IMG/VR virus record: IMGVR_UViG_3300005253_000075
Span: 1-49,585 of that record
From: a virus
DNA: 49,585 nt
Reading direction: 5' to 3' (one strand)
Shown here in pieces: positions 3,769 to 43,068 of this stretch. Positions within the stretch are counted from its first letter, which is position 1; each line of letters opens with the position of its first letter. The notes under the pieces were generated by a model. It was not told where the DNA came from. It saw nothing but the letters and a program-made list of their open reading frames with translations, and did no database searches. Made by a program: the position numbers and the translations under genes.

Positions 3769-3776
3769 AGCCCCCC

Positions 3777-10964: not shown

Positions 10965-10973
10965 GGAGGGGAC

Positions 10974-15107: not shown

Positions 15108-15307
15108 TGCTAAGGGAATGGGTCGCATTTGGGGTAATAATAATCTTTGGCTTGATTGGGTCAGCTCTTGGCATTTCTATGTTGTTAGCCTTGAGGGAAA
15201 TGGGCAAGTCTCAAGATAGAATGGATAAGGCCCTATATGATTTTTCTCAGAACATGGCCCATCTGTCTTTGTGCTGGTTATATTCTTTACACGGGAACGG
15301 TGACTGA
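15104..15307 (+). CDS. Small single-pass membrane protein
   Basis: 67 aa (start 15104 or 15107, overlapping the previous stop). One strong transmembrane helix (VAFGVIIIFGLIGSALGISM), then an amphipathic helical tail. TGATG overlap with the portal gene. Function unknown. Confidence 0.6.
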   Translation: MMLREWVAFGVIIIFGLIGSALGISMLLALREMGKSQDRMDKALYDFSQNMAHLSLCWLYSLHGNGD

Positions 15308-20982: not shown

Positions 20983-21891
20983 ATGAGTATTGCAAGGACT
21001 ATTTTGTCAGACTTCTATATTGACCGTCTGGCAAACTTAGAGATGATTATCAGAGACTTGTACGAGGACCTTCCACGCGTTATGCCTCAAATATTCAATG
21101 AGAGGAACGTGAAGGGTCCGATGTTCAAAACATCCGGGTATTCGGGCCTCGGCCTCTACTCGGAAGTTGGTGAAGGGGCAGACATTCAGACGGACGACCC
21201 GGTGCAGGGGTTCGATGCACAGTTTATTCCCCTAAAGCATGGGTCTGGCTTCAAGATGACCGCCGAGATGATGGATGACGACCTAGACCAGATTGCTAAA
21301 GACTACACCACACATCTTGGGAACTCCGAGGTACAAACCCAAGAAACCCAAGCGGCGGCATTGTTCAACAACGGGTTTTCTGGTGGAACTGCCATCCCTG
21401 ATGGTGAGCAGTTCTTCTCTGGTTCTCACCCACTCGCCAAAGCTGGCGGGACTTGGCGCAACCAGCCTAGCACATCCGCCGACCTGAGCATCACCAGCCT
21501 AGAGCAAGCCATGATTGACATGGCCGACTGGGTAAGCGATGCCGGATTGAAAATCGCTATCCGGCCCCGCATCTTGCTCATTCCGACGGAACTTTGGTGG
21601 CTGGCCCAGAGGTTGCTTAACTCCGAACAGCTTCCCCAGAGCGCAAACAACGACATCAACCCGGCGAGAGATTTTGTTACTCCCATTAAATGGGAATATC
21701 TCACCGACAGTGATGCGTTTTTCTTGGGCTCTGACAAGAATATGCACAAGCTCTTCTGGGGATGGAAGTTGAAGGGTGAGTTTGGTAGACAGTTCAACGA
21801 GAAAAACCAGACCCTAGAGGTCTATCGCACCTATCGTGCTATTCAGGGAGTTGGTGATGCCCGAGGGTGGTACGGAAGTCCTGGCGCATAG
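20983..21891 (+). CDS. Major capsid protein (HK97 fold)
   Basis: 302 aa, GGAGG before the ATG. Segments match the fold order: N-arm, E-loop region (GPMFKTSGYSGLGLYSEVGE), spine and P-domain helix (ITSLEQAMIDMADWVSDAGL), then RPRILLIPTELWWLAQRLLN and the C-terminal GEFGRQFNEKNQTLEVYRTY strands. It forms the icosahedral shell on the scaffold. Length is normal for a coreless HK97-type protein. Confidence 0.85.
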   Translation: MSIARTILSDFYIDRLANLEMIIRDLYEDLPRVMPQIFNERNVKGPMFKTSGYSGLGLYSEVGEGADIQTDDPVQGFDAQFIPLKHGSGFKMTAEMMDDDLDQIAKDYTTHLGNSEVQTQETQAAALFNNGFSGGTAIPDGEQFFSGSHPLAKAGGTWRNQPSTSADLSITSLEQAMIDMADWVSDAGLKIAIRPRILLIPTELWWLAQRLLNSEQLPQSANNDINPARDFVTPIKWEYLTDSDAFFLGSDKNMHKLFWGWKLKGEFGRQFNEKNQTLEVYRTYRAIQGVGDARGWYGSPGA

Positions 21892-22128: not shown

Positions 22129-22602
22129 ATGATGAAAAGAATCATGTTGGTGGCCCTCCTAGTTGCCGCATTAGTAGGAGTGCCTGCTGATTCGTGGGCT
22201 ACGGCCCCGTGGGGCGGAGCAGAGCCCCAAAGCGGGGAATCCGTTTATGAGTGTTGGGGCGTACATGGAAACCTGTGCGTTGGCACAGACGCCCACGGTA
22301 TCGGGTATATAAGATTTGGCAATGCCTATGGTGGTGTCTATATCTTCATGGACCCGGCTGCCCAGGTGGATGTTGCTGATAGGGCGGATTCGCAGAAGGG
22401 TGGGGCGCAGACCTTCGGTTTGGCTGATTCCCACTCTGTAAACCTTCTAAAGTATGCCCACTCACGCAACATCGAAACTGGCTTAAGCGATGTTCAACTG
22501 AGAAACATGAGCATTGCGTTTACCGTGGCGCACGGACGCTCAATGTCAATTGCCCATGAGTGTACCATTTCTGGTGTTAGTGGGACGTACACTTGTCCGT
22601 AG
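22129..22602 (+). CDS. Secreted protein with signal peptide
   Basis: 157 aa from the ATG at 22129 (GGAGAGCC upstream; GTG at 22126 also in frame). Signal peptide with h-region MLVALLVAALVGV and cleavage near DSWA-T. The mature part is Gly/Ser-rich with two Cys pairs (YECWGVHGNLC and a C-terminal pair), resembling small extracellular beta domains. It overlaps the Wzy-like gene by about 47 nt. Function unknown. Confidence 0.65.
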   Translation: MMKRIMLVALLVAALVGVPADSWATAPWGGAEPQSGESVYECWGVHGNLCVGTDAHGIGYIRFGNAYGGVYIFMDPAAQVDVADRADSQKGGAQTFGLADSHSVNLLKYAHSRNIETGLSDVQLRNMSIAFTVAHGRSMSIAHECTISGVSGTYTCP

Positions 22603-24110: not shown

Positions 24111-25403
24111 ATGGCACGCGGTAGGTCACAAACGCCCTTTAGTGCGGCCACGCAGTCAGACCAGCGAGTGACAGCATTTGAAGGGCCAATATCGGATGCT
24201 TTCGGGCGGCTGAGAACGTCAACGCCCCAGACCATATTTGACTCTAAGCAGATTAATGACAATGCCCCTCTCTCTTGGGACGATGCAGAGGTTTCAGGTG
24301 GAGGGACAGGCAGCACTTACAATGCGAACCAAGCCTCTACGACCATTACTGTTGGTGCCGAGGCTGGTGTAAGAACTCGTCAGACCAAGATGCGTTTTAA
24401 TTATCAGCCCGGAAAAAGCCAAATGATTTGTGTGACAGGCATATTGGGCGTTGGGGCTTCGGGGATAACCCAGCGAATTGGATATGGTGATGATGATAAT
24501 GGTCTTTTTTTTGAGACCATAGATGGAATATTTCAAGTCAACAGGCGCACAAAGACTTCCGGTTCCGCCGTCAACAATAGAACAATCCAGTCTAATTTTA
24601 ACATAGATACGATGGACGGAACTGGGCCGAGTCGAATTACAATCGACCTGTCTAAAACGCAAATATTCTGGATAGACTTTGAATGGCTTTCTGTCGGGCG
24701 GGTTCGATTCGGATTCGTCATTGAAGGCAAACTAATATATTTTCATGAATTTAATCATGCCAATGACCTCATAGTTGCATATATGTCCACACCCAACCTT
24801 CCGCTTCGTTACGAGATTGAGAACGATGGTACGGGGGGGGCGGCGGAATTAACTCATATTTGCACTACCGTTATAAGTGAAGGCGGGGCAGAGGAACTTG
24901 GTATTCTACAATACGAGAGCACTACTTCTAATAGGGCTGGCTCAGTAGTCCACATAAACGCCAACTCAGTTGATGTAGTCTATGCACTTGTTGGGATAAA
25001 ACTGAAGGCTGGTTTTAAAGATGTAACCGTAAAATTGGCATCAATGTCGGTCTTAGCTGAAACCAATGATGATTTTGAATGGATTGTTTTACTAAACCCG
25101 ACAATAGCGGGAACATTTACATACGCTGACAAGACGAATTCTGCAATTCAAACTGCAATTGGAGACGGCGTTGGCGACCCTTCTGCAAACAACATAACCG
25201 GGCTTGGGACGGTTATGGCTGCGGGTTTTGCTAATTCCACAGGTGGCGCTGGGGGTGGTGGGGCCATAACAAACCCGCTAGGAAGTGCTCTTAATTTGGG
25301 TTCTAAAATAGATGGCACTCAAGATGCAATAGTTTTGGCCGTTAGGTCACTTGGCGCAAACGCTAACGTCCACGGTGGACTGTCTTGGAGAGAATTGTCT
25401 TGA
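24111..25403 (+). CDS. Virion structural protein, beta-sandwich type
   Basis: 430 aa, starting one base after the upstream stop. N-terminal DAFGRLRTSTPQTIFDSKQI, then GGGTGSTYNANQAS and RQTKMRFNYQPGKSQMI, a set of blocks I recall from large virion-surface or fibre proteins of environmental phages. The whole is beta-rich with a Gly-rich hinge near residue 380. Unlike the following genes it has no signal peptide. Role in the virion is inferred from position and composition. Confidence 0.6.
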   Translation: MARGRSQTPFSAATQSDQRVTAFEGPISDAFGRLRTSTPQTIFDSKQINDNAPLSWDDAEVSGGGTGSTYNANQASTTITVGAEAGVRTRQTKMRFNYQPGKSQMICVTGILGVGASGITQRIGYGDDDNGLFFETIDGIFQVNRRTKTSGSAVNNRTIQSNFNIDTMDGTGPSRITIDLSKTQIFWIDFEWLSVGRVRFGFVIEGKLIYFHEFNHANDLIVAYMSTPNLPLRYEIENDGTGGAAELTHICTTVISEGGAEELGILQYESTTSNRAGSVVHINANSVDVVYALVGIKLKAGFKDVTVKLASMSVLAETNDDFEWIVLLNPTIAGTFTYADKTNSAIQTAIGDGVGDPSANNITGLGTVMAAGFANSTGGAGGGGAITNPLGSALNLGSKIDGTQDAIVLAVRSLGANANVHGGLSWRELS

Positions 25404-25414: not shown

Positions 25415-25825
25415 ATGAAGATTAAGAGAGTCGTTATCTTGACGATAGCGGCCCTGCTATTCACCACGACAGCATGGGCCGCTCAATACCAGCTCAAATC
25501 AGAAACATTACCAGTCGTCGGCTCTACCGCTGTGCGCATTACATCAACGGTGAACACATGGGCAACGTCGGTACTCTTCCAACCGCACATATCTCACCCC
25601 TCGGCCATCATGCGAATAGGCGATTCGGGCGTGACGACGACCCACGGCATACGCATCGTCCATTCCCAAAGCCTTGCTATGGATGCTCCTAGCTTCTCTG
25701 GCGGGACATCCGATGTCTATGACCTCTTCAACTTCTGGGCCATCTGCGGCTCGGAGGCCGGGGCTGACTTCTCTACGATTGCCAATAGTTGCTCGTTGAC
25801 TTTTACGTTTCCCGTCCAAGAATAG
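25415..25825 (+). CDS. Secreted virion-region protein
   Basis: 136 aa from the ATG at 25415 (GAAGGAGAGGCCC upstream). Signal peptide KIKRVVILTIAALLFTTTAW with cleavage after AWA. Mature part beta-rich with two Cys near the end (WAICGSEAG, NSCSLTF), suggesting a disulfide. First of a run of exported proteins in the tail region. Confidence 0.65.
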   Translation: MKIKRVVILTIAALLFTTTAWAAQYQLKSETLPVVGSTAVRITSTVNTWATSVLFQPHISHPSAIMRIGDSGVTTTHGIRIVHSQSLAMDAPSFSGGTSDVYDLFNFWAICGSEAGADFSTIANSCSLTFTFPVQE

Positions 25826-25834
25826 GGGGTCGAT

Positions 25835-26563
25835 ATGTTTAAGAAATATACGCCTCCCATACTACTTGCCTTGGCCCTCGTACTTGGGGGCTTTGGCTCG
25901 GGTTATGCCGTCTCATTTGACCTATTCGGGGATGAGGTGAACCTGTCGGGCGAGCAGATTATAACGGGCGAGAAGGCCTTTGCGGCAAGCCCGACCTTAA
26001 ATGATAACGTAAGCCTTAAACTTGGCACCGACGGCGATTGTACCCTTGAGTATGACGGTGCCGACGCGGTGTTTACCTGTACGACTTCGACCAGTGGGAT
26101 AAGCTTCGACCTCGCCGACACGAGCGGCACGTTAATCTTTGACAATAAAGGCGGTACCGGCGTTACAATGATAGCGTCAGGAATACTAGACTTTCACCCC
26201 GCAAACTTAACATTCTTTGGGGCGAACGTTGTTAGCGGTCTTGAACAAGTTGCTTTTGGAAACGCGGCAACCCCGCCGACCTCCTTAGGGATAGATACAT
26301 TTTCAATTTGGGGTGAAGATGCAAGCGGTGCCGGGTCTGCTGGTATGCACATCATGGATGAGGGTGAAAGCATTACAAAGATTGCACATGGTTCAATCGT
26401 ATCAGAACTAGATGGTGGCCCAGGCCCAGGCGTGGAAATAAAGCGTGGAGCTACGGACTCAGACATAACCTATATAGCCCTTAGGAATGCCGATGGGACA
26501 CTTGTTTACATATATCCCAACCCGACGGGCCTGGGTGTTCATGCTTCGACTGCCAAGCCGTAG
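25835..26563 (+). CDS. Fibre-like protein with signal peptide, paralogue A
   Basis: 242 aa. Signal peptide YTPPILLALALVLGGFGSGY, then the shared block SFDLFGDEVNLSG...QIITGEKAF, a beta-rich Gly/Thr/Asp-rich middle, and a conserved end (DITYIALRNADGTLVYIYPN ... GVHASTAKP). The next gene has the same N- and C-terminal blocks with a divergent middle. Tail-fibre or surface adhesin is the best reading; the signal peptide is unexpected for a virion protein. Confidence 0.65.
   Translation: MFKKYTPPILLALALVLGGFGSGYAVSFDLFGDEVNLSGEQIITGEKAFAASPTLNDNVSLKLGTDGDCTLEYDGADAVFTCTTSTSGISFDLADTSGTLIFDNKGGTGVTMIASGILDFHPANLTFFGANVVSGLEQVAFGNAATPPTSLGIDTFSIWGEDASGAGSAGMHIMDEGESITKIAHGSIVSELDGGPGPGVEIKRGATDSDITYIALRNADGTLVYIYPNPTGLGVHASTAKP
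26462..26563 (+). repeat. Conserved 102-bp fibre end, copy 1
   Basis: This segment encodes the last 33 residues of paralogue A and is about 90 percent identical, base for base, to 27428-27529 at the end of paralogue B. Conservation at DNA level, against divergent middles, marks a recent duplication or a recombination handle for exchanging fibre domains. Confidence 0.8.
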
Positions 26564-26731
26564 GATTAATTAATGGCTAATGTCAATCTAACCAATTTTG
26601 CTGAACAGGAAGAATTACTTAACGTGAGACCATTGGTTCCCGAGCTTTATATAGCTGACCATTGTTGGGGAGATTTTGAAGTCTCTGGCTATGTCCACAC
26701 CTCTATCTCCAAGATTAAGGCGAGGTTGCTC

Positions 26732-27529
26732 ATGTTTAAATTATCCCAGATTTCGGCCATAAAATCAAGGCCCTTATTCACGCTAGCGATTGCCTTGGTT
26801 CTCGTACTTGGCGGGTGGGGGTCTAGTGGTGGTGCCTCGTTTGAACTTTTCGGAAGCGAGGTAACGCTTTCTGGCAGTCAGACTATCACGGGCGAGAAGA
26901 CTTATGAGGCCGACCAGAATTTCGCTGATAATGTAAATATCAACTTAGGCGCCGATAGCGATTGTACGTTTGGCTTCGATGGCACCGACCTGGTGCTGAC
27001 CTGTACGACCACAGGCAGCAGGGTAATCTTCGACCTCGCTAATGCGAGCAATAACCTAATCTTTGATAATGCGGGTGCCTCTGGCGTTGGAATTAGTTCC
27101 GCTGGTGCCTTGAACCTGGTTGGCGACGGAATAACACTTTATAGTGCAGGTGCGGCTACGGGTGGTAGTAGATATGTTGCAATTCTGAATAATACCGCCA
27201 CCATTACCGCCGTCAGTGCCAATTCAGTTGCTTTTTGGGCCGAGGATATTGGAGCGTCTTCGTCGTTTCATATCATCGACGAAGCGGGCGATATTTACAA
27301 ATTTGGGTCTAGTGCCTTCAGCGTCCCAAACACCATCGTCGCCCACGCCGCCAGCATTACCGAAAACTGGTCTACGCAGGCGGGAGGAACTACCTCAAGC
27401 GAGATAGACCGAGGAACCTCAGACACAGATATAACCTATATAGCCCTTAGGAATGCCGACGGGACACTTGTTTACATATATCCCAATCCGTCTGGCGAGG
27501 GTGTTCACGCTTCGACTGCCAAGCCGTAG
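26732..27529 (+). CDS. Fibre-like protein with signal peptide, paralogue B
   Basis: 265 aa from the ATG at 26732 (GAGGTTGCTC upstream), which aligns with the start of paralogue A; the frame also opens at 26573, which would put 53 extra residues before the hydrophobic segment. Signal peptide region PLFTLAIALVLVLGGWGSSG, then SFELFGSEVTLSG...TITGEKTY, a variable beta-rich middle, and the conserved end shared with paralogue A. Fibre or adhesin function inferred. Confidence 0.6.
   Translation: MFKLSQISAIKSRPLFTLAIALVLVLGGWGSSGGASFELFGSEVTLSGSQTITGEKTYEADQNFADNVNINLGADSDCTFGFDGTDLVLTCTTTGSRVIFDLANASNNLIFDNAGASGVGISSAGALNLVGDGITLYSAGAATGGSRYVAILNNTATITAVSANSVAFWAEDIGASSSFHIIDEAGDIYKFGSSAFSVPNTIVAHAASITENWSTQAGGTTSSEIDRGTSDTDITYIALRNADGTLVYIYPNPSGEGVHASTAKP
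27428..27529 (+). repeat. Conserved 102-bp fibre end, copy 2
   Basis: Second copy of the segment at 26462-26563. Most differences lie in one short stretch coding for PTGLG versus PSGEG. Confidence 0.8.
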
Positions 27530-27540
27530 GGGAATAGCAA

Positions 27541-28500
27541 GTGCCTAGTTTAGATACGTTTGTTGACATCTATACGCAGGCTGGACTGCTCTTAGTTCAA
27601 GACATAACTGACACGGATATCCTGAACACCTTACAACAGGGTGTCAATATGTCGTATGACCAACTTGCAAAATCATACAGATTTTGGTGGCTTCAGAAGG
27701 AAGCCTCTGTTGACCTGAAGCCTAAATATGAAACGGGGAATATTCTAACAACCACTCAGGACGGGACTACCATAGTTGGAACGGGCACTAGTTGGTCTGG
27801 AAACGTTGCGGCTGGCGACAAGATACTTATTGCTGGCGACCAGGAGACATATCCCATCCAGTCGGTTGATAGCGATACGGGCATTACCCTAGGCACAGCT
27901 TCGGATGCTGTGGCCTATAAAGGGTCAACAATATCAAGCGCGACAGCCTACAAGATTTTCAGGGATGTTTACGCCCTCCCTTCGGACTTCCTTGACATGC
28001 TGAGGCCGCACATTGCGTTTGGGCGTCTTATGATAAAGCCCGTCGGCCTTAATCGCATGAGGTTTTTGCAGGAGCTTAACTTTAGCGGCGAAGGCCCGCC
28101 TCAGCATTACACAATAGTTTCGGACGAAACTAGCAACCCGCCCGCGCAAGAATTGATGGTCGAGCCATTTCCCGACCAGAGATACACCCCCTACTTTGAC
28201 TATGTGCGGCAGGTAACGCCGTTATCCGCCACCTCCGATGTTCCTCTTACTCCAAGGGAGTTCAGGGACATCCATGTTTACGAAGCGGCGGCGGACTTTG
28301 CACAGTTCAGAGCCAACGACCCTGAGCGTGGCGATAGGTTCAGGGCGATAGCCGAGGCCAGAAAGCTCGTTATGATGCAACACCAGAAGTCCAAGGAAAC
28401 AGAGGATAGGCCCGTGATTAGACCCGACCTATCCGCATACAGGCGTGTGAGCGTAGGCGCTAAAAGGTTCGACCCCAACTTTTCTCGCAATTTTGGGTAA
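27541..28500 (+). CDS. Head-tail adaptor protein (tail tubular A / P22 gp4-like)
   Basis: 319 aa from a GTG at 27541. Two helical parts flank a beta insertion (about residues 60-140: TTIVGTGTSWSGNVAAGDKI ... YPIQSVDSDTGITLGTASD), a layout I associate with podoviral adaptors. The helical part resumes at DVYALPSDFLDMLRP. It joins the portal to the tail nozzle in the assembled virion. No signal peptide, in contrast to its neighbours. Confidence 0.7.
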   Translation: MPSLDTFVDIYTQAGLLLVQDITDTDILNTLQQGVNMSYDQLAKSYRFWWLQKEASVDLKPKYETGNILTTTQDGTTIVGTGTSWSGNVAAGDKILIAGDQETYPIQSVDSDTGITLGTASDAVAYKGSTISSATAYKIFRDVYALPSDFLDMLRPHIAFGRLMIKPVGLNRMRFLQELNFSGEGPPQHYTIVSDETSNPPAQELMVEPFPDQRYTPYFDYVRQVTPLSATSDVPLTPREFRDIHVYEAAADFAQFRANDPERGDRFRAIAEARKLVMMQHQKSKETEDRPVIRPDLSAYRRVSVGAKRFDPNFSRNFG

Positions 28501-28510
28501 TGGGAAATAA

Positions 28511-30103
28511 GTGGTGTGGCTAAAGAGATTCATCGGTCTATTTCTTGTCTTGTTGCTGGCTGGCCCCGCACACGGGCTGTCCAGATACCAAACGTTTACT
28601 TACTTGAACAAAGTCGGGGGGTTGGATACGAAGTCCAGCACCCTCGCCATAAAAGAGCAGAACCTAGCTCTTGCCAAGAATATAGACCTCACCACGCTTG
28701 GAGCGAGGTCAAAACGTCGCGGCTCGACAAAGCACAATTCAACTCAGATAGTGGGATTGCCTGTCATAACTGGATTGTTCGAGTGGGAACGCGCGAACGG
28801 GACCAGACAATTCTTTGCCGCCACAGAAACAGGCATCATATACAAAGACAATGGTGGCGTATGGGAGGCGCAGCTAACAGGACTCACCACGGGCGAGGAG
28901 CATTTATACAGCTTCGCAAATTGGCGAGGGGACAGAGTAATAGCTTGCAATGGCCCCGATACAGCCAGAGACTCAACCGATGGAAGCTCATGGAACGTAC
29001 TGACTACAACCCCTTCGACTTGCAAGCTCGTAACGGTTCATCGTCGGCGGTTGTGGATAGTTGCGAACAACTCAGGCGTAATAAATCACTCAGTTCTGAA
29101 CGACGAAACCGACTTTACCGGGGGCGGAAGCGGCAGCTTTGCCGTAGGCTCTCCCGAGGGCGGAATCATAACCGCCATAGCTTCGTTCAGGGGCGTGCTG
29201 GTCATATTCAAGGAGCGGAGCATACACCTTCTCAGGGGCTCGTCCCCGACTTCAACAGACCCGGCTCCATTCTTGCTAGAGCCGTTGGACATAGGTACGG
29301 GTGCAGCGGCCTCAAGAAGCATAGCGACGGTTTTAGGCCCAGAAGGGTCAGACCTGTTTTTCGCATCAAGGGACGGTGTGGCCCGCCTGTCAGCTACGCA
29401 GACCTTCGGGGACTTCCGGCCATCTCTGGTTTCGGACATCATAGAGGGTACATGGAACGCATTAAACAAGTCAAAGCTCTCACAAGCGTCTGCGGTGTTC
29501 TATGCCAGCAAGTCACAATACTGGCTGGCGGTTCCGGGTTCTGGAAACACCCACAATACCCAGATATTGAAATACGATTCGCTCTCAAGGGGTTGGACGC
29601 TTGCCGACGTACACGCTCACACGCTTGCGTTGAGGCGCGACCCTGCCAGCGAGGACTTGCAGGTCTACTCAGGCAACTACACCGGCACGGTGTTCAAACA
29701 GGACGCTGGCACTTTCAGCGACGCAGGGGTGGGATATTCGGGAGAGTTCAGGACGGCGTGGCTAGACTTTGGGGTGCCCGAAAAGGTAAAAAACTATGGG
29801 CCGACGTTTCGGGTCTTTATTCAACCGACGGGCACATTCGACCTCAACGCAAGCTATACCATTATGACCGACAAGGGCATTGGAACTTCAAAGAGCATAA
29901 GTCTAACTACTGCTGGAAGCTGTGTTACGCTCGGTTCGTTCATACTTGGCACATCCAAATTATGCGCCACGGACGAGATAGCCATAGAGCAGGGCCAGTT
30001 GGCGGGCGAGGGGCGATTTATCCAGTTTCGATTTTCCAATAGCGCAGCAGACGAACAGTTCAAGGTCTTCGGATTTACTATGCAATATAGGACGACAGAC
30101 TGA
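28511..30103 (+). CDS. Tail nozzle protein (tail tubular B / P22 gp10-like) with signal peptide
   Basis: 530 aa from GTG-GTG at 28511/28514. Residues 1-23 are a textbook Sec signal (MVWLKRFIGLFLVLLLAGPA then HG-L). The mature start (LNKVGGLDTKSSTLAIKEQN, then KNIDLTTLGARSKRRG) is the classic N-terminus of nozzle proteins, so the signal is an added extension. The body is a repeating beta pattern suited to a propeller. No in-frame ATG lies near the expected mature start. Confidence 0.75.
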   Translation: MVWLKRFIGLFLVLLLAGPAHGLSRYQTFTYLNKVGGLDTKSSTLAIKEQNLALAKNIDLTTLGARSKRRGSTKHNSTQIVGLPVITGLFEWERANGTRQFFAATETGIIYKDNGGVWEAQLTGLTTGEEHLYSFANWRGDRVIACNGPDTARDSTDGSSWNVLTTTPSTCKLVTVHRRRLWIVANNSGVINHSVLNDETDFTGGGSGSFAVGSPEGGIITAIASFRGVLVIFKERSIHLLRGSSPTSTDPAPFLLEPLDIGTGAAASRSIATVLGPEGSDLFFASRDGVARLSATQTFGDFRPSLVSDIIEGTWNALNKSKLSQASAVFYASKSQYWLAVPGSGNTHNTQILKYDSLSRGWTLADVHAHTLALRRDPASEDLQVYSGNYTGTVFKQDAGTFSDAGVGYSGEFRTAWLDFGVPEKVKNYGPTFRVFIQPTGTFDLNASYTIMTDKGIGTSKSISLTTAGSCVTLGSFILGTSKLCATDEIAIEQGQLAGEGRFIQFRFSNSAADEQFKVFGFTMQYRTTD

Positions 30104-31056
30104 TGGGCAGAATACTTCTAAGTCTTTTTCTCATAATTCTTTTTGCCTCTCCTTCGTGGGCCGTTACCTGTTCCACCTCTTGGGCGAGGGTCAAGGACTG
30201 GGCCTCTGCCGAGGTGTTGACTGAACCCGACCTTGAGGCCGAGCATGACAATACAAACACCCTTGGGAGCAATTGCGGTTCGGTTTTAGGCACCCACGAC
30301 CACGACAATGCGGGCACGGATAAACTCAACGCCCATGCCTCCGTTGTCGCCCTATCTATTAACGCTGGGCTTATAAATACTGAGGCTGCCACATCTCACC
30401 AGGCGTTGGTGGCCCAGGGAGATGGAACCGCAGGTTGGGTAACGGCGGTTATTACAAGCGGTGAGTCGCAGGGCGATGTGCTTTATTTCGACGGGAGCGT
30501 ATGGGCAAAGTTGGTAGCGGGCACAGATGGGTTGTTTTTGAAGACGCAGGGAGCAAGCGCGAATCCTACATGGGCCGCTGCTGCGGTTTCAGCCGCCCAC
30601 GCAAGCAAGATATGGGACGCTGATGTAAATACTCTTGTCGAGGTCGAGCAGGCGGCAGACCAGGATGTTATTCGATTTACAGTTGACGGCACAGAGAAAA
30701 TGCTTATCGACTCCACCGGCGTCAGCTTTGCTAAGGGTGATGTAGCAGTCAAGGGGTGGGTGAAGTTTGATGGCACAACCCCGGCCAATATTTTAGATTC
30801 GTTCAATGTTACAAGCGTGACCTATGTCGCCACAGGACGGTATCAAGTTATATGGGACACAGACTTTGCTGATGCTAATTATGTTGTTGTCTGTACCTCT
30901 CAGTCGGGGGGGGCTGACCCCGGCAATGCCGATTTTTGTCATATAGAGCCTGGCGGCCAAGCGGCTGGCTCGGTAGACCTAAGCAATATAGATGGTGGCG
31001 GCGCCGGCGCTGTTGATGCCACCTTTGTTCATGTTATTGCTTTTGGGAATCAATAG
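30103..31056 (+). CDS. Tail fibre-like protein with signal peptide
   Basis: 317 aa, ATG overlapping the nozzle stop. Signal ILLSLFLIILFASPSWA with cleavage after SWA. Then the block VTCSTSWARVKDWASAEVLT ... NTNTLG, shared with the next gene, a beta-rich shaft-like middle, and a C-terminal Gly-rich domain (GGAGAVDATFVHVIAFGNQ). Receptor-binding or fibre role inferred. Confidence 0.65.
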   Translation: MGRILLSLFLIILFASPSWAVTCSTSWARVKDWASAEVLTEPDLEAEHDNTNTLGSNCGSVLGTHDHDNAGTDKLNAHASVVALSINAGLINTEAATSHQALVAQGDGTAGWVTAVITSGESQGDVLYFDGSVWAKLVAGTDGLFLKTQGASANPTWAAAAVSAAHASKIWDADVNTLVEVEQAADQDVIRFTVDGTEKMLIDSTGVSFAKGDVAVKGWVKFDGTTPANILDSFNVTSVTYVATGRYQVIWDTDFADANYVVVCTSQSGGADPGNADFCHIEPGGQAAGSVDLSNIDGGGAGAVDATFVHVIAFGNQ

Positions 31057-31764
31057 ATGTGGAAACGATTAGCGTTAGTTCTATTGTTGTTGGCCTTGCC
31101 CGCTTCGGCACAAGCGGCTACCTGTTCGACTTCGTGGGACGTGGCAAAGACATGGGCAAACGCAGAGGTTCTTACTCACACAGACCTGAACGCGGAGTTC
31201 AACAACACGAACACGCTGGGGGCGAATTGCGCTTCGGTGATGTCCGACCACAAGCACACGGGAACCCGTACCACGCAGATGGACGCGCACGCCTCTTTAA
31301 CGGCCACGTCAATTCACGCAAGCCTCATAGTGACCGACACGGCGGCACACGGGCTTTCGCTGGTGGTCCAGGGAGACGGGACAGCCGACTGGTCTGCGGC
31401 CACAAAGGACAAGGTTTCCATAGCCTTCATTATAGATGGTGGCACGACGGTCATAACACCGGGGGTCAAGGGCTTCCTGGAGGTTCCGTTCGACTGCAAC
31501 ATAGACCAATTTACGGTGATGGCAAACCAGTCGGGCACCTTGGTTACGGATATCTTCAAGGACGCCTTTGCCAACTTCCCCCCGACGGTTGCAGACAGCA
31601 TCGTGGGGAACAATGGACCGGCGTTGGTAAGCCAACAGAGCCATCAGGACTCGGTGTTGAGCGACTGGACTACGGGTATATCGGCGGGAGACATAGTGGG
31701 ATTTAACGTGGACAGCATCTTGAACGTACATAGGGCGACCATATCTCTGAGGTGTGCTAGATGA
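31057..31764 (+). CDS. Tail fibre-like protein with signal peptide, N-terminal paralogue of 30103
   Basis: 235 aa, starting directly after the previous stop. Signal LALVLLLLALPASAQA, cleavage near AQA-A. Residues 22-75 repeat the N-terminal block of the upstream protein (TCSTSWDVAKTWANAEVLTH ... NTNTLGANC). The C-terminal domain is unrelated and beta-rich. Shared N-terminus with a different C-terminus suggests two fibres using one attachment site. Confidence 0.65.
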   Translation: MWKRLALVLLLLALPASAQAATCSTSWDVAKTWANAEVLTHTDLNAEFNNTNTLGANCASVMSDHKHTGTRTTQMDAHASLTATSIHASLIVTDTAAHGLSLVVQGDGTADWSAATKDKVSIAFIIDGGTTVITPGVKGFLEVPFDCNIDQFTVMANQSGTLVTDIFKDAFANFPPTVADSIVGNNGPALVSQQSHQDSVLSDWTTGISAGDIVGFNVDSILNVHRATISLRCAR

Positions 31765-33113
31765 TAAGGCGGCTTACATATATTCTCCTTGCGGCCCTAT
31801 TCCTTCTCCCGATGGGAGGGGTTTCTGATGCCACTACTGGGCCGATTATTCAGCGATTTGAGAATGGTCACACAGAATACCTGGGCGGGAGACTGCGTAG
31901 GACCGTCTTATCGGTGTCCCCAGTCAACTATCAGCGTCAAAATGGTGCCTGGACACCTATAACCAATCAAATTGGCGATACGGGCGTTCCAGGGATGGGT
32001 AAGGGCATAGATGAGTTTATTCAGTTCCGAATAGCCGAGATACTTGCTGGACAATCCCCCGTTCTCCACATAGGTCGGGGCGCAACCCATATCAAGGTCG
32101 CCGTCCTTGGAACCAATACCCCCACGCCCGGAGTTGTGAACGGCCAATCAATCCGCTTTAACGGAGCGTGGAACGGTGCAGACCTTGAATATGTCGTCGC
32201 CGGACACTTTATAAAGGAGAACATCTACCTCAAGACGGGACACCCTGCCAGCTTCGCTTTCCGCATTGACTCCCACCAGGGTTTCGACCCCCAGACTCTC
32301 ACCTTTGGCAAGTTCACAATCCAGCCGCCCATATTGCAGAAAGCTGGCGAGGTGCCCGTCCGACTAAGTTGGGTGGTCACACAGCAAGGCGGAAAGACTA
32401 CTCTCACAGTCAATCTTCCTGTTGGGAACTGGACTGGATGGATTCTTGACCCCACGACTATCTTTCAGCCCGACTCGGCTGGACTCGATACATATTTGCC
32501 CTCAAACGAGGCGGACACCAACAAGGGGGCCGTTCCAACTCTCCAAGTGGGCGACCACCGTGGCGCAGGAAGTGCCATATACCGAGCGCTTATCGAGTTT
32601 GATGTTAGCAGCATTTCAGCCAGCGATACCGTTACGAGCGCCATTTTATCTCTTTACGAAGAAGGTGCTGGCGCTGATGGCACGGGAGAACCGTGGGCAC
32701 ACGAACTTAGGCTGGTCTTGGTTGATTGGGTGGAGGCCCAAGCAACATACAACATTTATTCAACTGGCAACAACTGGACGACGGCGGGGGCCGGAAGTGA
32801 CGGAAATGACCGCTCTGCAACAATCAGCGCAACGGTTGACTTAGACAGCACGGCTGCTAATGCCTTCATTGATTGGGGTTCTACGGCCCAACTCGTAAGT
32901 GACGTACAGAACTTCGTTGACGGCGGGCTTTCCAACTTTGGATGGCTATTGAAAGCATCGGCGGCTGAGAACGCGGGCGCTGCGGAAAGAGGTAGCATAT
33001 TTTCCTCATCCGACACTGCCACCGCTAGCCAGCGGCCCAAGCTGGTCGTGATTCATGCGGTTGCTGCCGCCGATGGCTTCCCGCACTCTTACGGGACGAT
33101 TATAGGGAACTGA
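31761..33113 (+). CDS. Exported protein with DNRLRE-like domain
   Basis: 450 aa, ATGA overlap. Signal YILLAALFLLPMGGVSDA. Residues 25-230 form a beta-rich domain; residues 245-440 follow the DNRLRE / CBM96-like pattern (DTYLPSNEADTNKGAVPTLQ, YRALIEFDVSSI, ILSLYEEGA, DWVEAQATYNIYSTGNNW). Such domains occur on secreted, carbohydrate-interacting bacterial proteins. In a tail cluster this suggests a glycan-binding tip, but it may instead act in the envelope. Confidence 0.65.
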   Translation: MIRRLTYILLAALFLLPMGGVSDATTGPIIQRFENGHTEYLGGRLRRTVLSVSPVNYQRQNGAWTPITNQIGDTGVPGMGKGIDEFIQFRIAEILAGQSPVLHIGRGATHIKVAVLGTNTPTPGVVNGQSIRFNGAWNGADLEYVVAGHFIKENIYLKTGHPASFAFRIDSHQGFDPQTLTFGKFTIQPPILQKAGEVPVRLSWVVTQQGGKTTLTVNLPVGNWTGWILDPTTIFQPDSAGLDTYLPSNEADTNKGAVPTLQVGDHRGAGSAIYRALIEFDVSSISASDTVTSAILSLYEEGAGADGTGEPWAHELRLVLVDWVEAQATYNIYSTGNNWTTAGAGSDGNDRSATISATVDLDSTAANAFIDWGSTAQLVSDVQNFVDGGLSNFGWLLKASAAENAGAAERGSIFSSSDTATASQRPKLVVIHAVAAADGFPHSYGTIIGN

Positions 33114-33157: not shown

Positions 33158-33784
33158 ATGGTTATGGTAGGAGAAAAAATCATCGTGGTTCCTACGGGAA
33201 TGGAAGACCTTCCTCGCCTATTTGAGATGCGGAGCCTCCCAAGTATAATTGGCTACATGGATGACGAACTTGACTTTGCTGGTCGGGCAGAAACAATGGG
33301 AACGGACCCGTTTCTTTTGTACCAACAGCACACCGTCCAGCAAATGCTTAACGGCCATTGGTATTTCAGTTTGTGGCTAAAATCGCCCGTAACGCTCGTA
33401 GGAACCTTTTACTCGACTCAAATATTCTCGGACGGAACGATAGTTCCTACCATACTAATAGACCGTAAGTATTGGGGCAAGGGCATTGCCGAAGATGCTG
33501 GCAACGTCATGTTCAAGTGGGCGTTTCAGGACAAATTGAGGCATGGACTCGACGGTTACAAAATGGTTTTAACATATATAAACAATCGAAATACGAGAGC
33601 TAAAGCATATGCGAAATCAATGGGGCTGAAAGAGTATGGAATTCATCCTCGCCCCGAAGAGGACAGGGTTCAGGTGATGTATGCGATTAGCAAGCCTGAG
33701 TGGCTTGCGCTAAGGCAAAGCCAGAACGATAAGCCCGCCAAGAAGAAGCGGGGCAGGCCGAAGAAGGAGGAGGTGGAAGCGTAA
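33158..33784 (+). CDS. GNAT-type acetyltransferase with C-terminal AT-hook
   Basis: 208 aa. The GNAT core is visible as VGTFYSTQIFSDGTIVPTIL, then the acetyl-CoA loop RKYWGKGIAEDA, KMVLTYINNRNTRAKAYAKS and GLKEYG. The last 15 residues (KKKRGRPKKEEVE) contain the RGRP core of an AT-hook, giving a DNA minor-groove binder. It lies between fibre and ejection-protein genes. Substrate unknown: a virion protein, a host protein or an aminoglycan are all possible. An ejected acetyltransferase that stays with DNA is a speculative reading. Confidence 0.7.
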   Translation: MVMVGEKIIVVPTGMEDLPRLFEMRSLPSIIGYMDDELDFAGRAETMGTDPFLLYQQHTVQQMLNGHWYFSLWLKSPVTLVGTFYSTQIFSDGTIVPTILIDRKYWGKGIAEDAGNVMFKWAFQDKLRHGLDGYKMVLTYINNRNTRAKAYAKSMGLKEYGIHPRPEEDRVQVMYAISKPEWLALRQSQNDKPAKKKRGRPKKEEVEA

Positions 33785-34509
33785 TGGGCGGCTCCAGTAG
33801 TAGACGGACGGGTTCGGAGACAATAACACAACCCGTAAGCCAAACTTTCAACCTCTCACCTGAGCAGAGGCAGTTACTTGGGCAGGAGGTACAGCTAAGG
33901 CAGTCATTCTTGGGCAGATTTCAGGAACCGACCTTTGGCTTGATTGGACAGGCTATTGGTGGAATTCCACAGGGGGGGTTTGCCGTTCCTCAAGGATTGC
34001 CTACCGGACAAGTTGCTCAACAGGCGGTTGCTGGTCAATTTGCACCAACACAGTTTACCACGGCCCAGAGGCAGGCGACCATCGGGGCCGCTCAAGCCGC
34101 CTCACAGCCAGCGATAGATGCCATCACTCGTACAGTAAGGGAAACACAGGCGGGCAGGGGCTTGCTAGATAGCAGCCAGACAGGGATAGAGCTTGGCAGG
34201 GCATTGGCCCCACAGAGCGCCCAGTTAGCCTCAATAGGCGGTCAGGCTGGGGCCAGAGAGTTCGACGTAGCCAGAGAGCAACTATTCCAAAGGGCGGGCC
34301 TCGAAGAGCAGCTTAGATTACAGCAGCAGCAGCAACAGCAGTTGCAGTTCCAGAACGCCTTGCAGTTGCTAGGGATACCCTTGGGCGTACTTGGTGGCGG
34401 CCCTGGCACTTTAGGGGCCACGGCTGGCTTGACGGGCGCAACGCAGGGCGGCGGGTCACAGAGAACTCAAACATCCGGTAGGCAGCCTGGACAGGGATTG
34501 TTTAAGTGA
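33784..34509 (+). CDS. Internal virion protein, Gln/Gly-rich
   Basis: 241 aa, ATG overlapping the upstream stop. Low-complexity, Gln-rich helical region (a run of seven Gln within RLQQQQQQQLQ) and a Gly-rich hydrophobic end. Its place at the start of the ejection-protein block resembles small podoviral internal proteins (T7 gp14, P22 gp7) that form the channel across the envelope. Confidence 0.55.
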   Translation: MGGSSSRRTGSETITQPVSQTFNLSPEQRQLLGQEVQLRQSFLGRFQEPTFGLIGQAIGGIPQGGFAVPQGLPTGQVAQQAVAGQFAPTQFTTAQRQATIGAAQAASQPAIDAITRTVRETQAGRGLLDSSQTGIELGRALAPQSAQLASIGGQAGAREFDVAREQLFQRAGLEEQLRLQQQQQQQLQFQNALQLLGIPLGVLGGGPGTLGATAGLTGATQGGGSQRTQTSGRQPGQGLFK

Positions 34510-34934
34510 GCGGCCTAGAGGTTTTGCTTGGGGCACCAGCGGCGGCTACTGCTGCCGCGCCTACTGCGGCGGGAGCAAGTAGTTCAGCACTTGCTGCTTC
34601 GCTTTCTGCCGCCCCTGCGACTCCGGGGTTTTTGGGCACCGCCGGAATTACTGCTGGCGCTGGTGCGGCCCCGACGATTGGAAGCATTGGCGCTACCGCA
34701 GGGCTTGGCCTTGAGGGAATAAGCGCAGGGCAGACGTTGGGTATATTCGGTGGCCCAAGTCCCGCAGGCGGGGGGGGGGTGCCACAGCTTCAGTCACCCC
34801 AATTCCCAAGTCCAGCGGGTGCGTTATTGCCCCTTGGGGTTGGGCCGCAACTGTTCGGCCAAGCATCGCAGGCCGCTGGCCGAATATCGGATGAAAGACA
34901 GAGCTTCATTGACCAGTTTCTTAGGGGCTTCTAA
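34506..34934 (+). CDS. Internal virion protein, Ala/Gly-rich
   Basis: 142 aa from a GTG overlapping the previous stop (GTGA). Ala/Gly-rich hydrophobic segments (PAAATAAAPTAAGASSSALA, then AGITAGAGAAPTIGSIGATA) suit a pore-forming ejection protein. The C-terminus is helical (GRISDERQSFIDQFLRGF). Assignment by composition and position. Confidence 0.5.
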   Translation: MSGLEVLLGAPAAATAAAPTAAGASSSALAASLSAAPATPGFLGTAGITAGAGAAPTIGSIGATAGLGLEGISAGQTLGIFGGPSPAGGGGVPQLQSPQFPSPAGALLPLGVGPQLFGQASQAAGRISDERQSFIDQFLRGF

Positions 34935-36658
34935 TGGGTGGGTTGCTTGAAGCGGTAGGTGGCACGGGCACAGGCCAAGCTATAGCCGGTCAGCCGGGTG
35001 CCAGAAGACTGGGGGAGAACTTCTTTACCGGCCCCGGCGGTAGCCTGTTTACGAGCGACCTGTTTCAGATAGCTGGCCTTGCCGCCAGCATAGCGGACAC
35101 TAGGGCCGCACCCGTGTTTACGGGCTTTGCCAAGAATGCAAGAGAGAACCTAAAATTACAGCGGGAAATAGCGTCCGAAAAAGCTCTCACAAAAGCCCTT
35201 GCAGAGCTTGACCAATTCAAGTCTGGCCAGGGGAGTGGCACGCCTGCGGGTGGAACCGCAGCGACACCACGGCCAGCAACGCCACCGACCCTATCACAGC
35301 AGTTTACCGCCCCTGGGGTGTTCGGCCAGCCTGGAACCACACCAGCACTTCCCCCGCCAACCCCAAGGCCGCTATTGCCAGAAGAGATTGCGCTTGCTGA
35401 ACAGCAGGGACTTACGGGATTAAGCACGGCGGTAGGGTTAGCGACAAGGAAGCCTACGATAATTCTATCGTCACGGAAAGATTTAATAAAAGCCGCAAAA
35501 GAGGCTCGGGAAGCAAGAACGGTTGAAGACAAAGAAAGGAAACGGGAAATTGCGGTGCTTGGCATAGATAGTCTTATAGATGGTCGATTGGAGGACGGAA
35601 AATCGTCAGACCAAATTACTGGCGAAGTGGCTAGCATTCTTCGCTCGGCTGGTTTTAAGCCTACAGAGGTTAGAAGCTCAGTTCAAACTGTTAGGGATTC
35701 AATAAAGTTGAGAATAGTGGCTGAAGAGGAAAAAATAAAAGCAAGGGCTAAATTAGAAGCCCAAGCCGAAGCTGGACCAGCAGCCATAGAGGCTACCGAA
35801 AGGCGTCTTAGAGAACTTGGGTTGTCCACACCAGCACCAGGGGGTCCAATACCCGCCCAGGGGGCCATACAGGCTCCGCTAGCCCCTGCTGTGCCTATTA
35901 GGCGACGAGTGGGGATAACAAGGGGCAATATTCGCATATTCGATGACCCGGTTGATGTTGCTGCGGCCAAAAAGTTAAGGGTGCTAAACATAGAGGAATT
36001 TGAAGCAAGGCAGGATGCGGAGCAAATATTTAAGGATACCCAAGCATTGCCGCCAAAATCCGTTGCGAGAAACCTATGGGTTCAGGGTCGGCACGAACAA
36101 TTAAAGTTGTCCACCGCAGAACAAACAAAGGCAGACAAGACGTTTGACGCTGCCGCATTGTCCCAAGACGTGCTAGAGATTTTTGATGCCAAGTTTACAG
36201 GTATAGAAGGAACCTTCTTGGCAGTCGCAAGCTCAAGGGCGGGTCAGATATTTAGGAACCTCGGGGTAGACCCTAATGATATTCGAGATTTTGCTACCTA
36301 CAGAAACGCCCTTGATGCCGTAGTGGCCCCCGTAAGAAATCAGCTTTTTGGTGCTGCCCTTACTGAGACAGAAGTGAAAAGGTCGGTGAACTTTCTCAAA
36401 GACTCCATTGCACAACTACAGTCAGACCCCAAGGCTGCTGCTGCATCGCTACAAAGATTCTATGAAATCGTTGCAAGCAAGGGCAATCGGTTCTTTACCA
36501 GGTTGAACAAAACCAAGTTCTTTGCGAGAGAGCATATCCCTACCTTGGATGAATATTTTTCCAGTAAGTCGGATACAGAAATCGCAGGGTTCATGTCTAG
36601 GGGGCTGATTACCCCGGAACGAGCAAGGAGAATTAGGCGATTAGGGATGGGAAGATAA
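34934..36658 (+). CDS. Internal (ejection) virion protein
   Basis: 574 aa, ATG one base into the previous stop. Gly-rich N-terminus, a Pro-rich hinge (about residues 105-155), then long charged helices (KERKREIAVLGIDSLIDGRL, AEEEKIKARAKLEAQAEAGP) and a helical C-terminal domain. Fits the second ejection protein of podoviruses, which leaves the capsid with the DNA. No enzymatic motif seen. Confidence 0.6.
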   Translation: MGGLLEAVGGTGTGQAIAGQPGARRLGENFFTGPGGSLFTSDLFQIAGLAASIADTRAAPVFTGFAKNARENLKLQREIASEKALTKALAELDQFKSGQGSGTPAGGTAATPRPATPPTLSQQFTAPGVFGQPGTTPALPPPTPRPLLPEEIALAEQQGLTGLSTAVGLATRKPTIILSSRKDLIKAAKEAREARTVEDKERKREIAVLGIDSLIDGRLEDGKSSDQITGEVASILRSAGFKPTEVRSSVQTVRDSIKLRIVAEEEKIKARAKLEAQAEAGPAAIEATERRLRELGLSTPAPGGPIPAQGAIQAPLAPAVPIRRRVGITRGNIRIFDDPVDVAAAKKLRVLNIEEFEARQDAEQIFKDTQALPPKSVARNLWVQGRHEQLKLSTAEQTKADKTFDAAALSQDVLEIFDAKFTGIEGTFLAVASSRAGQIFRNLGVDPNDIRDFATYRNALDAVVAPVRNQLFGAALTETEVKRSVNFLKDSIAQLQSDPKAAAASLQRFYEIVASKGNRFFTRLNKTKFFAREHIPTLDEYFSSKSDTEIAGFMSRGLITPERARRIRRLGMGR

Positions 36659-38703
36659 TGGCTGGCGAGCTTACAGATAAAGAGTTTGAGGCGCTATTAA
36701 AAGAGACAACTGAAGGCCCTTTTCTGACGCTTGGTGAACGCAGAAGAGCTGATGAGGCTGCTTTTCTTAGAAGGTCATTAATCGAAGGGTTGCCTATTGT
36801 TTCTCCAGGCGGGGCCGAATTGGGGGTAGAACCTGTACCATTGCCCCCGCTTCCCCGATTACCCATTGCTACGCTTGGGGGGGCCATAGCGGGGGAGGAA
36901 ATAGGCATATTGGCGGGAACTGGTGTGGGTGCCGCCCTTGCTCCAGCCTTTCCCCCTGCTGCTTTTCTTGGCCCCGTAATTGGCGGGGGATTAGGCGCTG
37001 CGTTCGGGGGGTTTGTTGGAAAGCTGGCACAAGACACAGCGGAGCAAATTTCAGGCGCCCCCGAAAAGCCCCTTGGTAAACAACTAAGAGAAGCCGCAGA
37101 AGAGGCAAGGATTCAGGGAGCCATTGGTGCTGGTGGTGTTGCAATAGGACGAACACTTAGGGGTGGCCTTCTTTCGAGAAAGCTAGAGGAGGGCGCTGAG
37201 GAATTTGATGTCTTGCTTCGTAAATTTGGTGGCGCAGATGCACCCGCAGAAACTATAGCGAAAAAGACCCAAGCTCGATTGCCCGATATTGCAGAGGGTG
37301 TGGCAGATGGGGCATTTTTCTCTGGCAACCAATTCATCAGGCATGAGAACAAAATAAATAAAGTCATAGATGATATGGTTGAAAGCTTAAGAGGAACAGC
37401 CCCTGATGAAGCCGGAGTTGTTTTGATAGATGCCCTTGAGGGTGGTGAGTCTTTGCTGGCATCCGCATCTCAAAAATCTTACGAGGCAACGGATAGGATT
37501 CTTGGCGTAGGCGTAGAGGAACTAAAGATTATAAAACAAGTAGAAATAGGGTTGTTCGGGCCAACGGGACAGATGTTGACAAGAGAGCAAGCTGAGACAG
37601 TTTTTAAGGCTGTTGGTGCAAAGGTCAATCTACGCCCCGTCAGAATAGAGGCAGAGAAACTATTTGCCAGCATTGCAGAAGTGGAGGGGTTCGCCGCAGA
37701 AGCAGAAATACTTGCAAGAATAATAAACCTACCTAACAATATTACCTTTGGTGCCGCTCAGAGATTAAGGTCGGGCTTACTTAAACAAACGAGGGATGCG
37801 GTTGAGTCAGGCGTAAGACAGAGAATAGAGGGAATCCTGACGGGCGGAATAGATGAGGCAATGGAAGTTGCCGCGAGGACAGCCGACCCTTCGGGCGAAG
37901 CATTAAAGTTTTGGCGCAATGCCAACGCATTGTGGAAGATGAAGGCAGAGAAATTTAATAGTCCTTTTATTAAAGCCCTCCGGAGAAGAGAATTTCCCGA
38001 CGAAGTATATGCTTCTATAATTCGGGGCGCTGGTGGCCCATCAAGAGTTAAGGAGATAATGAGATTAGTCGGCCCCGAAGCGGGTGGAGTTTTTCAGAGA
38101 GCATATACAGAACAGCTTTTTAGCAAAGCGTTCTCTCCGGCCCTAAACCAAGCATCTGGAAAGAGTCTGCTATCGTCACTCACCAAGGGCACAGAGGGAA
38201 GGCTCAGCCAAGAAATTCTAACGTCCGAACAAATGAAGGGGATGAAAACAATTGCGAGGGGCCTTATAAATAGACAGAAGAAGATTGTTTCGCCGGGCAG
38301 GTTTGCAATTATGCTCCTTCAGGTTGGAGCCATTACGGGGGCCGCTACTGCTGTCGCGGTTGGGAAGGGAGAAGGCGTTGCCTTCGGAGTGGGTGGTGCA
38401 TTGTTGATTGGGCCGAATATCTTGGCGAGAATTACAACCAACTCCCGAATTGCACGATTCATTGTTTTTGGAATGACGGAACCAATTGGAACCAGAGCAG
38501 GGATAACTGCCGCCACCAGAGTATTTCTAGCAGCAAAAAAGGCACAGAAAGAAATACAAAGAGAAGGGCGACCCAGGGAACCAGTTGTCCCCCTACAGGG
38601 GCCATTGGCACCAATAGGGCCTCAAGCACCTATCTCCCCTGGCCCAAGTCTCCCACAACCACAGTCGACCACCCCCACAGCCGTCTTCGGGGTTAGAGGC
38701 TAA
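36658..38703 (+). CDS. Large internal virion protein with Gly-rich membrane segments
   Basis: 681 aa, ATG overlapping the previous stop. Residues 68-125 are Gly/Ala-rich and hydrophobic (IATLGGAIAGEEIGILAGTG, FLGPVIGGGLGAAFGGFVGK), able to insert in membranes. The rest is helical, with a second hydrophobic region near residue 550-585 (VGAITGAATAVAVGKGEGVA) and a Pro-rich end. Largest ejection protein; no lysozyme-type motif seen. Confidence 0.6.
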   Translation: MAGELTDKEFEALLKETTEGPFLTLGERRRADEAAFLRRSLIEGLPIVSPGGAELGVEPVPLPPLPRLPIATLGGAIAGEEIGILAGTGVGAALAPAFPPAAFLGPVIGGGLGAAFGGFVGKLAQDTAEQISGAPEKPLGKQLREAAEEARIQGAIGAGGVAIGRTLRGGLLSRKLEEGAEEFDVLLRKFGGADAPAETIAKKTQARLPDIAEGVADGAFFSGNQFIRHENKINKVIDDMVESLRGTAPDEAGVVLIDALEGGESLLASASQKSYEATDRILGVGVEELKIIKQVEIGLFGPTGQMLTREQAETVFKAVGAKVNLRPVRIEAEKLFASIAEVEGFAAEAEILARIINLPNNITFGAAQRLRSGLLKQTRDAVESGVRQRIEGILTGGIDEAMEVAARTADPSGEALKFWRNANALWKMKAEKFNSPFIKALRRREFPDEVYASIIRGAGGPSRVKEIMRLVGPEAGGVFQRAYTEQLFSKAFSPALNQASGKSLLSSLTKGTEGRLSQEILTSEQMKGMKTIARGLINRQKKIVSPGRFAIMLLQVGAITGAATAVAVGKGEGVAFGVGGALLIGPNILARITTNSRIARFIVFGMTEPIGTRAGITAATRVFLAAKKAQKEIQREGRPREPVVPLQGPLAPIGPQAPISPGPSLPQPQSTTPTAVFGVRG

Positions 38704-39023: not shown

Positions 39024-39398
39024 ATGAGAGCCTTCGGAAAGTGTGTGGTCATAGAAGGTCTAGGCGCGAATCACGGCGGGCCGATAGGCGACCTTCTGGT
39101 TTTGCTGTGGTTTTGCGAACACGCCATTTTTCATGCGGGGATGACCCCTATGGAACCACCCAGGCCCGTGGCTTCCAAGCTACCGCCGCCGAAGGATGGC
39201 TGGACCATCACACAGACTATGGAGGAATCCACGGCTTCAGTCCATGCTTTTCCTTCGCAGGGGTATGTAAGGGTGACGATGGATAGCTGCAAGGACTTTG
39301 ACGAGAAGGCACTTGAGAAGCTGTTTAAGGAGACATTTGCGTTGGAGACGGTGCAGACGCACCCGCCTATTATTACAGGGTTTAGAGAGGAATCATGA
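39024..39398 (+). CDS. S-adenosylmethionine decarboxylase-like protein
   Basis: 124 aa. N-terminal FGKCVVIEGLGAN and IGDLL match the start of prokaryotic AdoMetDC. The catalytic segment reads MEESTASVHAFPSQGYVRVT then MDSCKDFD. Ser69, His74 and Cys89 have the same spacing (5 and 20) as the pyruvoyl Ser63, His68 and Cys83 of the Thermotoga enzyme. AdoMetDC makes decarboxylated SAM for spermidine synthesis after self-cleavage before the Ser. The usual His after Glu-Ser is Thr here. Phage polyamine genes are known from cyanophages. No spermidine synthase gene is visible, so host enzymes would be needed. Confidence 0.75.
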   Translation: MRAFGKCVVIEGLGANHGGPIGDLLVLLWFCEHAIFHAGMTPMEPPRPVASKLPPPKDGWTITQTMEESTASVHAFPSQGYVRVTMDSCKDFDEKALEKLFKETFALETVQTHPPIITGFREES

Positions 39399-42332: not shown

Positions 42333-42496
42333 ACCCCGCCCCTGAATGCGATTGCAAGCACTGCGATGAATGGCTCTCGATGTATCTCAATCTCTTGGAG
42401 GAACATTTCCATGTCCTCACCTTGATTGAGATGGAACAGGCTACGCAGGAGCGCCTCGAACGCTTACGGGACGCACCGAGAAAGGTAAGGCTATGA
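42329..42496 (+). CDS. Small Cys-rich helical protein
   Basis: 55 aa (MNPAPECDCKHCDEWLSMYL at its start). Three Cys in six residues, then a coiled-coil-like helix (EMEQATQERLERLRDAPRKV). ATGA overlaps at both ends. Function unknown. Confidence 0.55.
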   Translation: MNPAPECDCKHCDEWLSMYLNLLEEHFHVLTLIEMEQATQERLERLRDAPRKVRL

Positions 42497-42891: not shown

Positions 42892-43068
42892 ATGAGCGTA
42901 TCCACCTGTAGAGACTGCGCGACTAGGGCTCAACTTGAGAAGATTGAAAATATGGTTTTTGTTGCCCGAGGCGCACTATTAAACGATGACCTTGATAAAG
43001 CATATAGGCTTCTCGGCGAGGCGAGAGGGCTGCTGGAAACGGTCATCGCCATCCAGAAGGAGCTTTAA
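42892..43068 (+). CDS. Small helical protein with CxxC
   Basis: 58 aa (MSVSTCRDCATRAQLEKIEN at its start). CRDC followed by helices (KAYRLLGEARGLLETVIAIQ). TAATG overlap with the lipoprotein gene downstream. No family recognised. Confidence 0.55.
   Translation: MSVSTCRDCATRAQLEKIENMVFVARGALLNDDLDKAYRLLGEARGLLETVIAIQKEL

Follow-up and report, generated by a model that had tools for sequence, protein, structure and literature searches.

A short-tailed phage with predicted Sec signal peptides on its nozzle and fibre proteins: a possible case of tail assembly in two compartments

Tailed phages are understood as cytosolic assemblies, and the locus described here raises the question of why a run of tail proteins in one of them would open with signals for the Sec pathway. 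The window, that is, the whole stretch of DNA analysed, is a virus record of 49,585 bases whose structural region is of the SU10 podovirus type, with portal, capsid, adaptor and nozzle (Table 1). A preliminary description of this DNA had listed seven ORFs of the tail and fibre module as carrying signal peptides (SPs). All seven are present at the positions given. Each opens with a basic n-region, followed by a hydrophobic core free of charged residues and a small-x-small cleavage site. The adaptor and the virion protein at 24111, named in that description as lacking a signal, were also without one under our rule set. To our knowledge, no other tailed virus has export signals on its nozzle and fibre proteins. 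A search of the full-text literature turned up nothing on Sec signals in the tail proteins of tailed phages, which is weak evidence of absence, as subscription papers were largely outside its scope.

Table 1. Features of the structural region of the window, with predicted signal peptides (SP) and cysteines
Feature	Position	Strand	Evidence and remarks
Portal (SU10_portal)	15307..17676	+	PF23899 4.6e-34; phrog_1216; no SP
Major capsid protein	20983..21891	+	phrog_133/4523/371, PF25209; no SP
Small SP protein adjoining the capsid gene	22129..22602	+	SP; mature part with 4 Cys
Virion structural protein, accessory	24111..25403	+	phrog_1645 1.6e-84; no SP
Predicted exported tail-module protein	25415..25825	+	SP to AWA/AQY; Cys 111/126
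Predicted exported fibre-like protein	25835..26563	+	SP to GYA/VSF; Cys 69/82
Paralogue of 25835	26732..27529	+	SP of about 36 aa with long n-region; Cys 78/91
SU10-type adaptor	27541..28500	+	PF24175 7.2e-8; alignment; no SP, no Cys
Predicted nozzle signal peptide MVWLKRFIGLFLVLLLAGPAHG	28511..28576	+	
Predicted mature nozzle	28577..30103	+	AF2 fold and HMM; Cys 146, 171, 471, 485
Predicted exported tail fibre	30103..31056	+	phrog_11355 tail fibre 2.9e-10; SP to SWA/VTC; 4 Cys
Predicted exported fibre/virion protein	31057..31764	+	phrog_10330 virion structural 1.5e-18; SP; 4 Cys
Predicted exported protein with Disaggregatase-related repeat	31761..33113	+	PF06848 4.5e-10; SP to SDA/TTG; no Cys
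GNAT acetyltransferase, end of exported module	33158..33784	+	PF13302; no SP
Four predicted internal/ejection-type proteins	33784..38703	+	no SP, zero Cys
The slash in an SP entry marks the predicted cleavage site.

Signals were called with a hand-made rule set based on charge, core hydropathy and the residues at -3 and -1, which recognised all 11 E. coli signal peptides given to it. Its background is low: it called 15 of 830 (1.8%) plus-strand ORFs in other phage loci, 19 of 436 antisense ORFs, and one, weakly, of 51 structural proteins of P22, SU10, T7 and N4. In the module, seven of nine contiguous genes carry a signal (binomial P of 4e-11 to 3e-8 at a background of 2-5%), and clustering by chance is ruled out. 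An eighth SP protein of the structural region, at 22129, is the one outside the distal tail and fibre module, and a further SP protein is encoded at 10084. The window and two related phages together have 20 SP proteins. Signal length ranges from 19 to 36 aa and the 15-aa mean hydropathy of the core from 2.1 to 2.9; on inspection, all 20 have the three regions (n, h and c) and a small residue at both -3 and -1. No further hydrophobic segment occurs in the mature parts, whose highest 19-aa Kyte-Doolittle mean is 1.66 or less in 20 of 20. One signal was judged by hand: the frame of the 26732 gene is open from 26573, 53 codons upstream, where it has an ATG of its own that the automatic caller had taken. 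From the sequence, 26732 is the likelier start, because the paralogue at 25835 opens with the same MFK.

Two trivial accounts of the signals were rejected. A frame or assembly artefact is contradicted by the agreement of a near-identical contig (L002) and the two divergent relatives. Lipoproteins are contradicted by the rule set, which called none of the 20 as such; in the fibres the first mature Cys stands at +2 or +3 and is accompanied by a second conserved Cys, while a lipobox Cys would be at +1. Elsewhere in the window, lipoprotein-type signals occur on three small proteins (11857-12204, 42493-42873 and 43068-43535). The proteins at 10084-10497 and 17673-18173, exported or membrane-bound, are paralogues that have AQPELK.GQEVE..YDG in common after a hydrophobic N-terminus, and a search for their family gave no match.

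Identification of the 28511 product relies on structure and on gene position. An AlphaFold model from an alignment of 11 sequences has medium confidence (pLDDT 67, pTM 0.72), with segment 469-500, which holds Cys 471 and 485, below pLDDT 50. The model matches the solved nozzles 9nwi, 9vyg, 8zkk, 7z4b and 8eap. Foldseek aligned it with the nozzles of Pa223, Pan3, VP1, SU10, P22 and Sf6 at E-values of 4e-20 to 2e-14 (4.3e-20 to 9nwi, 2.8e-16 to 8zkk and 6.2e-15 to P22 gp10), and a profile HMM of the nozzle finds 9nwi (4e-7) and 8zkk (0.0011) by sequence. The gene lies directly 3' of the SU10-type adaptor. We assign the product as a predicted nozzle of the SU10/P22 type; the phrog_5107 label "amidase", which aligns over the whole length, was set aside, as the fold is that of a nozzle. 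The corresponding AF2 model of the 25415 protein (pLDDT 42) was left unused. By alignment, the proteins at 31057 and 30103 have a common N-terminal domain. The adaptor carries an inserted domain at 27721-27960 that matches N-terminal regions of phage tail-fibre families.

The nozzle signal had been described as an addition in front of the normal family N-terminus, and it does place 22 extra residues ahead of the point where homologues start. Also borne out is the statement that no in-frame ATG would give a form without the signal: only TTG codons occur, at positions 14, 15, 32 and 38, and the stop-to-stop ORF opens at 28511 itself. The window has one nozzle gene, and therefore the SP-bearing form should be that of the virion. 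In both relatives, L048 and L049, a 4-nt overlap between the ATG of the nozzle signal and the upstream stop speaks for the SP-bearing start. A downstream start that would make the signal an error of gene calling was rejected on these three grounds, namely the missing ATG, the weak TTG codons and the overlap in the relatives.

Two more phages, L048 (the same contig as L007, L078, L079 and L084) and L049, come from the sample of L002, and a single metagenome sample is the source of all three SP phages. The nozzles of L048 and L049 share 46-47% identity with that of the window and open with MKRYLLTFLLVLGLASPSLA, a different string from that of the window with the same type of signal. Signals are also found on the homologues of the 25415 protein (L048 5213, L049 5414), on fibre homologues and on several genes absent from the window; the 24111-type gene is absent from L049 in the interval from the coiled-coil gene to the adaptor. 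From the nozzle up to the GNAT gene, all genes carry a signal in the window (4/4), L048 (6/6) and L049 (6/6), 16 of 16 in total despite differing gene content. As content varies and the signal stays, the signal reads as a rule for this position in the module. Between L048 and L049, the nozzle signal has four synonymous and no replacement codon changes and that of the 25415 homologue one synonymous and three replacement changes, counts that are small and only suggestive. The GNAT gene itself is kept between the fibre and internal-protein genes in all three phages (L048 7861, L049 7383).

The search for nozzle homologues with and without the extension, proposed in the preliminary description, found both kinds: the window, L048 and L049 have it, and no distant homologue with a readable start carries an SP. 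These SP-less nozzles (L003-L006, L050-L056, L069, L070, L086 and others) start some 10-30 residues before a GG(L/I)N-type motif; outside this set are sequences that are truncated or badly started, with an N-terminus that is not confidently readable (L057-L064, L066, L067, L072 and L073). Searches for further relatives through the 25415, fibre and adaptor families returned the same contigs only. The best negative counterpart of the SP phages is MW202601 (Caudoviricetes sp. ct7ZZ929; L086), which has a related nozzle and capsid and an identical adaptor-nozzle-fibre-fibre order with no SPs. By eye its fibre N-termini are similar to those of the window, but its fibres begin with the domain itself.

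Cysteine content provides an independent line of evidence. The mature parts of all 20 SP proteins have 0, 2 or 4 Cys. The count is non-zero in 18 and thus even in 18 of 18 Cys-containing proteins, against 11 of 30 Cys-containing structural proteins of the controls P22, SU10, T7 and N4 (Fisher P of 7e-6 with proteins taken as independent, 0.003 with one per family). Density differs in the same direction, with 9.4-10.5 Cys per 1000 aa in SP proteins and 2.8-3.0 in those structural proteins of these phages that lack a signal (P 4e-7), a ratio of about 3.5; the controls have 3.9 per 1000. All three SP forms of the nozzle have the four Cys complete, a combination absent from each of nine homologues without a signal. 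Since these have 2-6 Cys elsewhere, the difference lies in the set and not in the count; only one of them, L005, has a Cys at 146. The fibre proteins have Cys 23/58 in common and differ in a further pair; for the adaptor, which belongs to the cytosolic side, the count is 0-1. The 31761 protein and L048 6672, without Cys, say nothing for or against oxidation. An even number of Cys is preferred in exported proteins of Gram-negative bacteria (PMC7678975). The even counts in the SP proteins therefore make export to an oxidising compartment the likeliest reading, a strong argument but not proof; the disulfides could in principle form after lysis instead.

Taken on these sequence features, predicted export of nozzle and fibres through Sec is well supported. 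The division between proteins with and without a signal falls at the adaptor-nozzle joint, with capsid, portal, adaptor, the 24111 protein and the predicted internal proteins on the signal-less side; the internal/ejection role is predicted from gene position together with a weak match to phrog_167 (tape measure). We lean towards a short tail made in two compartments, with a cytosolic head-adaptor and an exported nozzle-fibre half. That the latter half is disulfide-bonded and joined to the head-adaptor half only when the inner membrane is breached is a proposition we consider evenly balanced. Capsid, portal, adaptor and predicted ejection proteins would assemble and package DNA in the cytosol, while the nozzle and all fibre-module proteins would pass through Sec and lose their signals at the outer face of the inner membrane, fold in the periplasm and have their paired Cys oxidised there. 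Opening of the inner membrane at the end of infection would let the two halves meet, and filled heads would then receive the nozzle-fibre part at their adaptor, either in the periplasm or in the lysate. The parts of this scheme that we infer are cleavage, location in the periplasm, and when and where the halves join. Late joining would need a filled head to keep its DNA with the adaptor alone, which counts against the scheme. P22 tail parts can be added in vitro to filled heads, and holins can make very large holes. Such holes are also mentioned in PMC12162936. A search of the window recognised no holin or endolysin.

The preliminary description had left three fates for these proteins side by side. 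Export gains from the Cys pairing, and assembly after holin action appears to fit best; retention in the inner membrane by the uncleaved segment has become less likely, given the cleavage sites, the Cys pairs and the lack of membrane segments in the mature parts. For display of fibres from the envelope, also raised there, we found no evidence. A related arrangement, in which the signals are cleaved and nozzle and fibres form a docking site on the periplasmic face of the inner membrane where heads would be finished before lysis, at the membrane or across it, would place the boundary at the adaptor-nozzle joint as one between a cytosolic and an exported partner, and would account for the joint shift of the whole distal tail. 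A head is unable to cross an intact membrane, the mature proteins have no membrane anchor, and no phage pore or secretin-like protein was recognised among the ORFs searched, so that we regard this arrangement as unlikely. Slightly more doubtful is the idea that the hydrophobic segments stay uncleaved, as membrane anchors or membrane-active peptides carried in the virion. In its favour, the hydrophobic cores are strong, and phage SAR endolysins keep uncleaved signals (an example is in PMC3765740). A plausible cleavage site follows soon after the core in 20 of 20 proteins, whereas SAR signals are without one (PMC3765740); the nozzle family N-terminus starts just past the predicted site, and anchors alone leave unexplained how an uncleaved nozzle fits the adaptor.

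A comparably low probability attaches to exported copies that act as decoys or receptor blockers against superinfection, the virion being built from a signal-less fraction. Secreted receptor-binding fibres could block receptors, and the O-antigen ligase-like and glycosyltransferase genes of the window suggest envelope change, but the nozzle family is not receptor-binding, its only gene in the window has no good downstream start, and its Cys set suits one oxidised, folded form. Least probable of all, in our estimate, is that the signals are real in sequence yet functionally neutral, for example inefficient and gained by recombination, with assembly remaining cytosolic. Strong divergence of the nozzle signal between the window and its relatives would suit neutrality. 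Against it stand the same sequence type on 20 proteins in three genomes, lineage-specific module genes included, the Cys pairing that goes along with the signal, and the absence of replacement changes between the nozzle signals of L048 and L049.

Comparison with known systems sets assembly in two compartments apart from each of them. The SU10/P22-type nozzles (P22 gp10, SU10, VP1, Pa223) are like that of the window in fold, in place after the adaptor and in single copy, and the SU10 type also fits the portal and adaptor. The homologues examined start at the domain without a leader, unlike the nozzles of the window, L048 and L049; the window nozzle differs from them in its Sec signal of about 22 aa and its four conserved Cys. 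Inovirus coats remain membrane-held and the virions leave by extrusion, whereas the mature proteins of the window lack a membrane segment and belong to a tailed virus with a capsid. What inoviruses have in common with the window phage is that SP-bearing virion proteins enter the host secretion pathway (for inoviruses, PMC4823517). SAR endolysins and secreted lysis proteins of tailed phages likewise use Sec before lysis (PMC3765740), but SAR endolysins are lysis enzymes with uncleaved signals, whereas here structural proteins have predicted cleavage sites and a search of the SP proteins found no lysis domain. If export is true, passage of the nozzle and every fibre through Sec would alter the time and place at which the virion becomes infectious and link phage growth to the Sec and disulfide enzymes of the host; the tail fibres would also gain disulfides as they fold. 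Pairs of nozzle homologues with and without an SP make the question directly testable.

Some further observations concern the host and other contigs. An O-antigen ligase-like membrane protein (Wzy_C, PF04932) is encoded at 22559-23704, inside the capsid module, and a glycosyltransferase at 9159-10100; together they suggest a change of surface polysaccharide in a diderm host. The host is probably diderm, judging by the O-antigen ligase-like gene and a weak Rz-like match, and a scan of genome contigs for nozzle or adaptor relatives found none. The window also contains genes for a GroES-like co-chaperonin (14778-15107) and an S-adenosylmethionine decarboxylase-like protein (39024-39398). In another phage, L045, the homologue of the SP-less 24111 protein (9965-11263) opens with the signal MRKLIYIFLLLSAVAYAQ, while the predicted tail proteins of that phage are mostly without one. 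The structural region of L076 has two called SPs and a weaker one (3569-3970, 6733-7182 and 11277-11561), and the signals of L045 and L076 may be independent gains.
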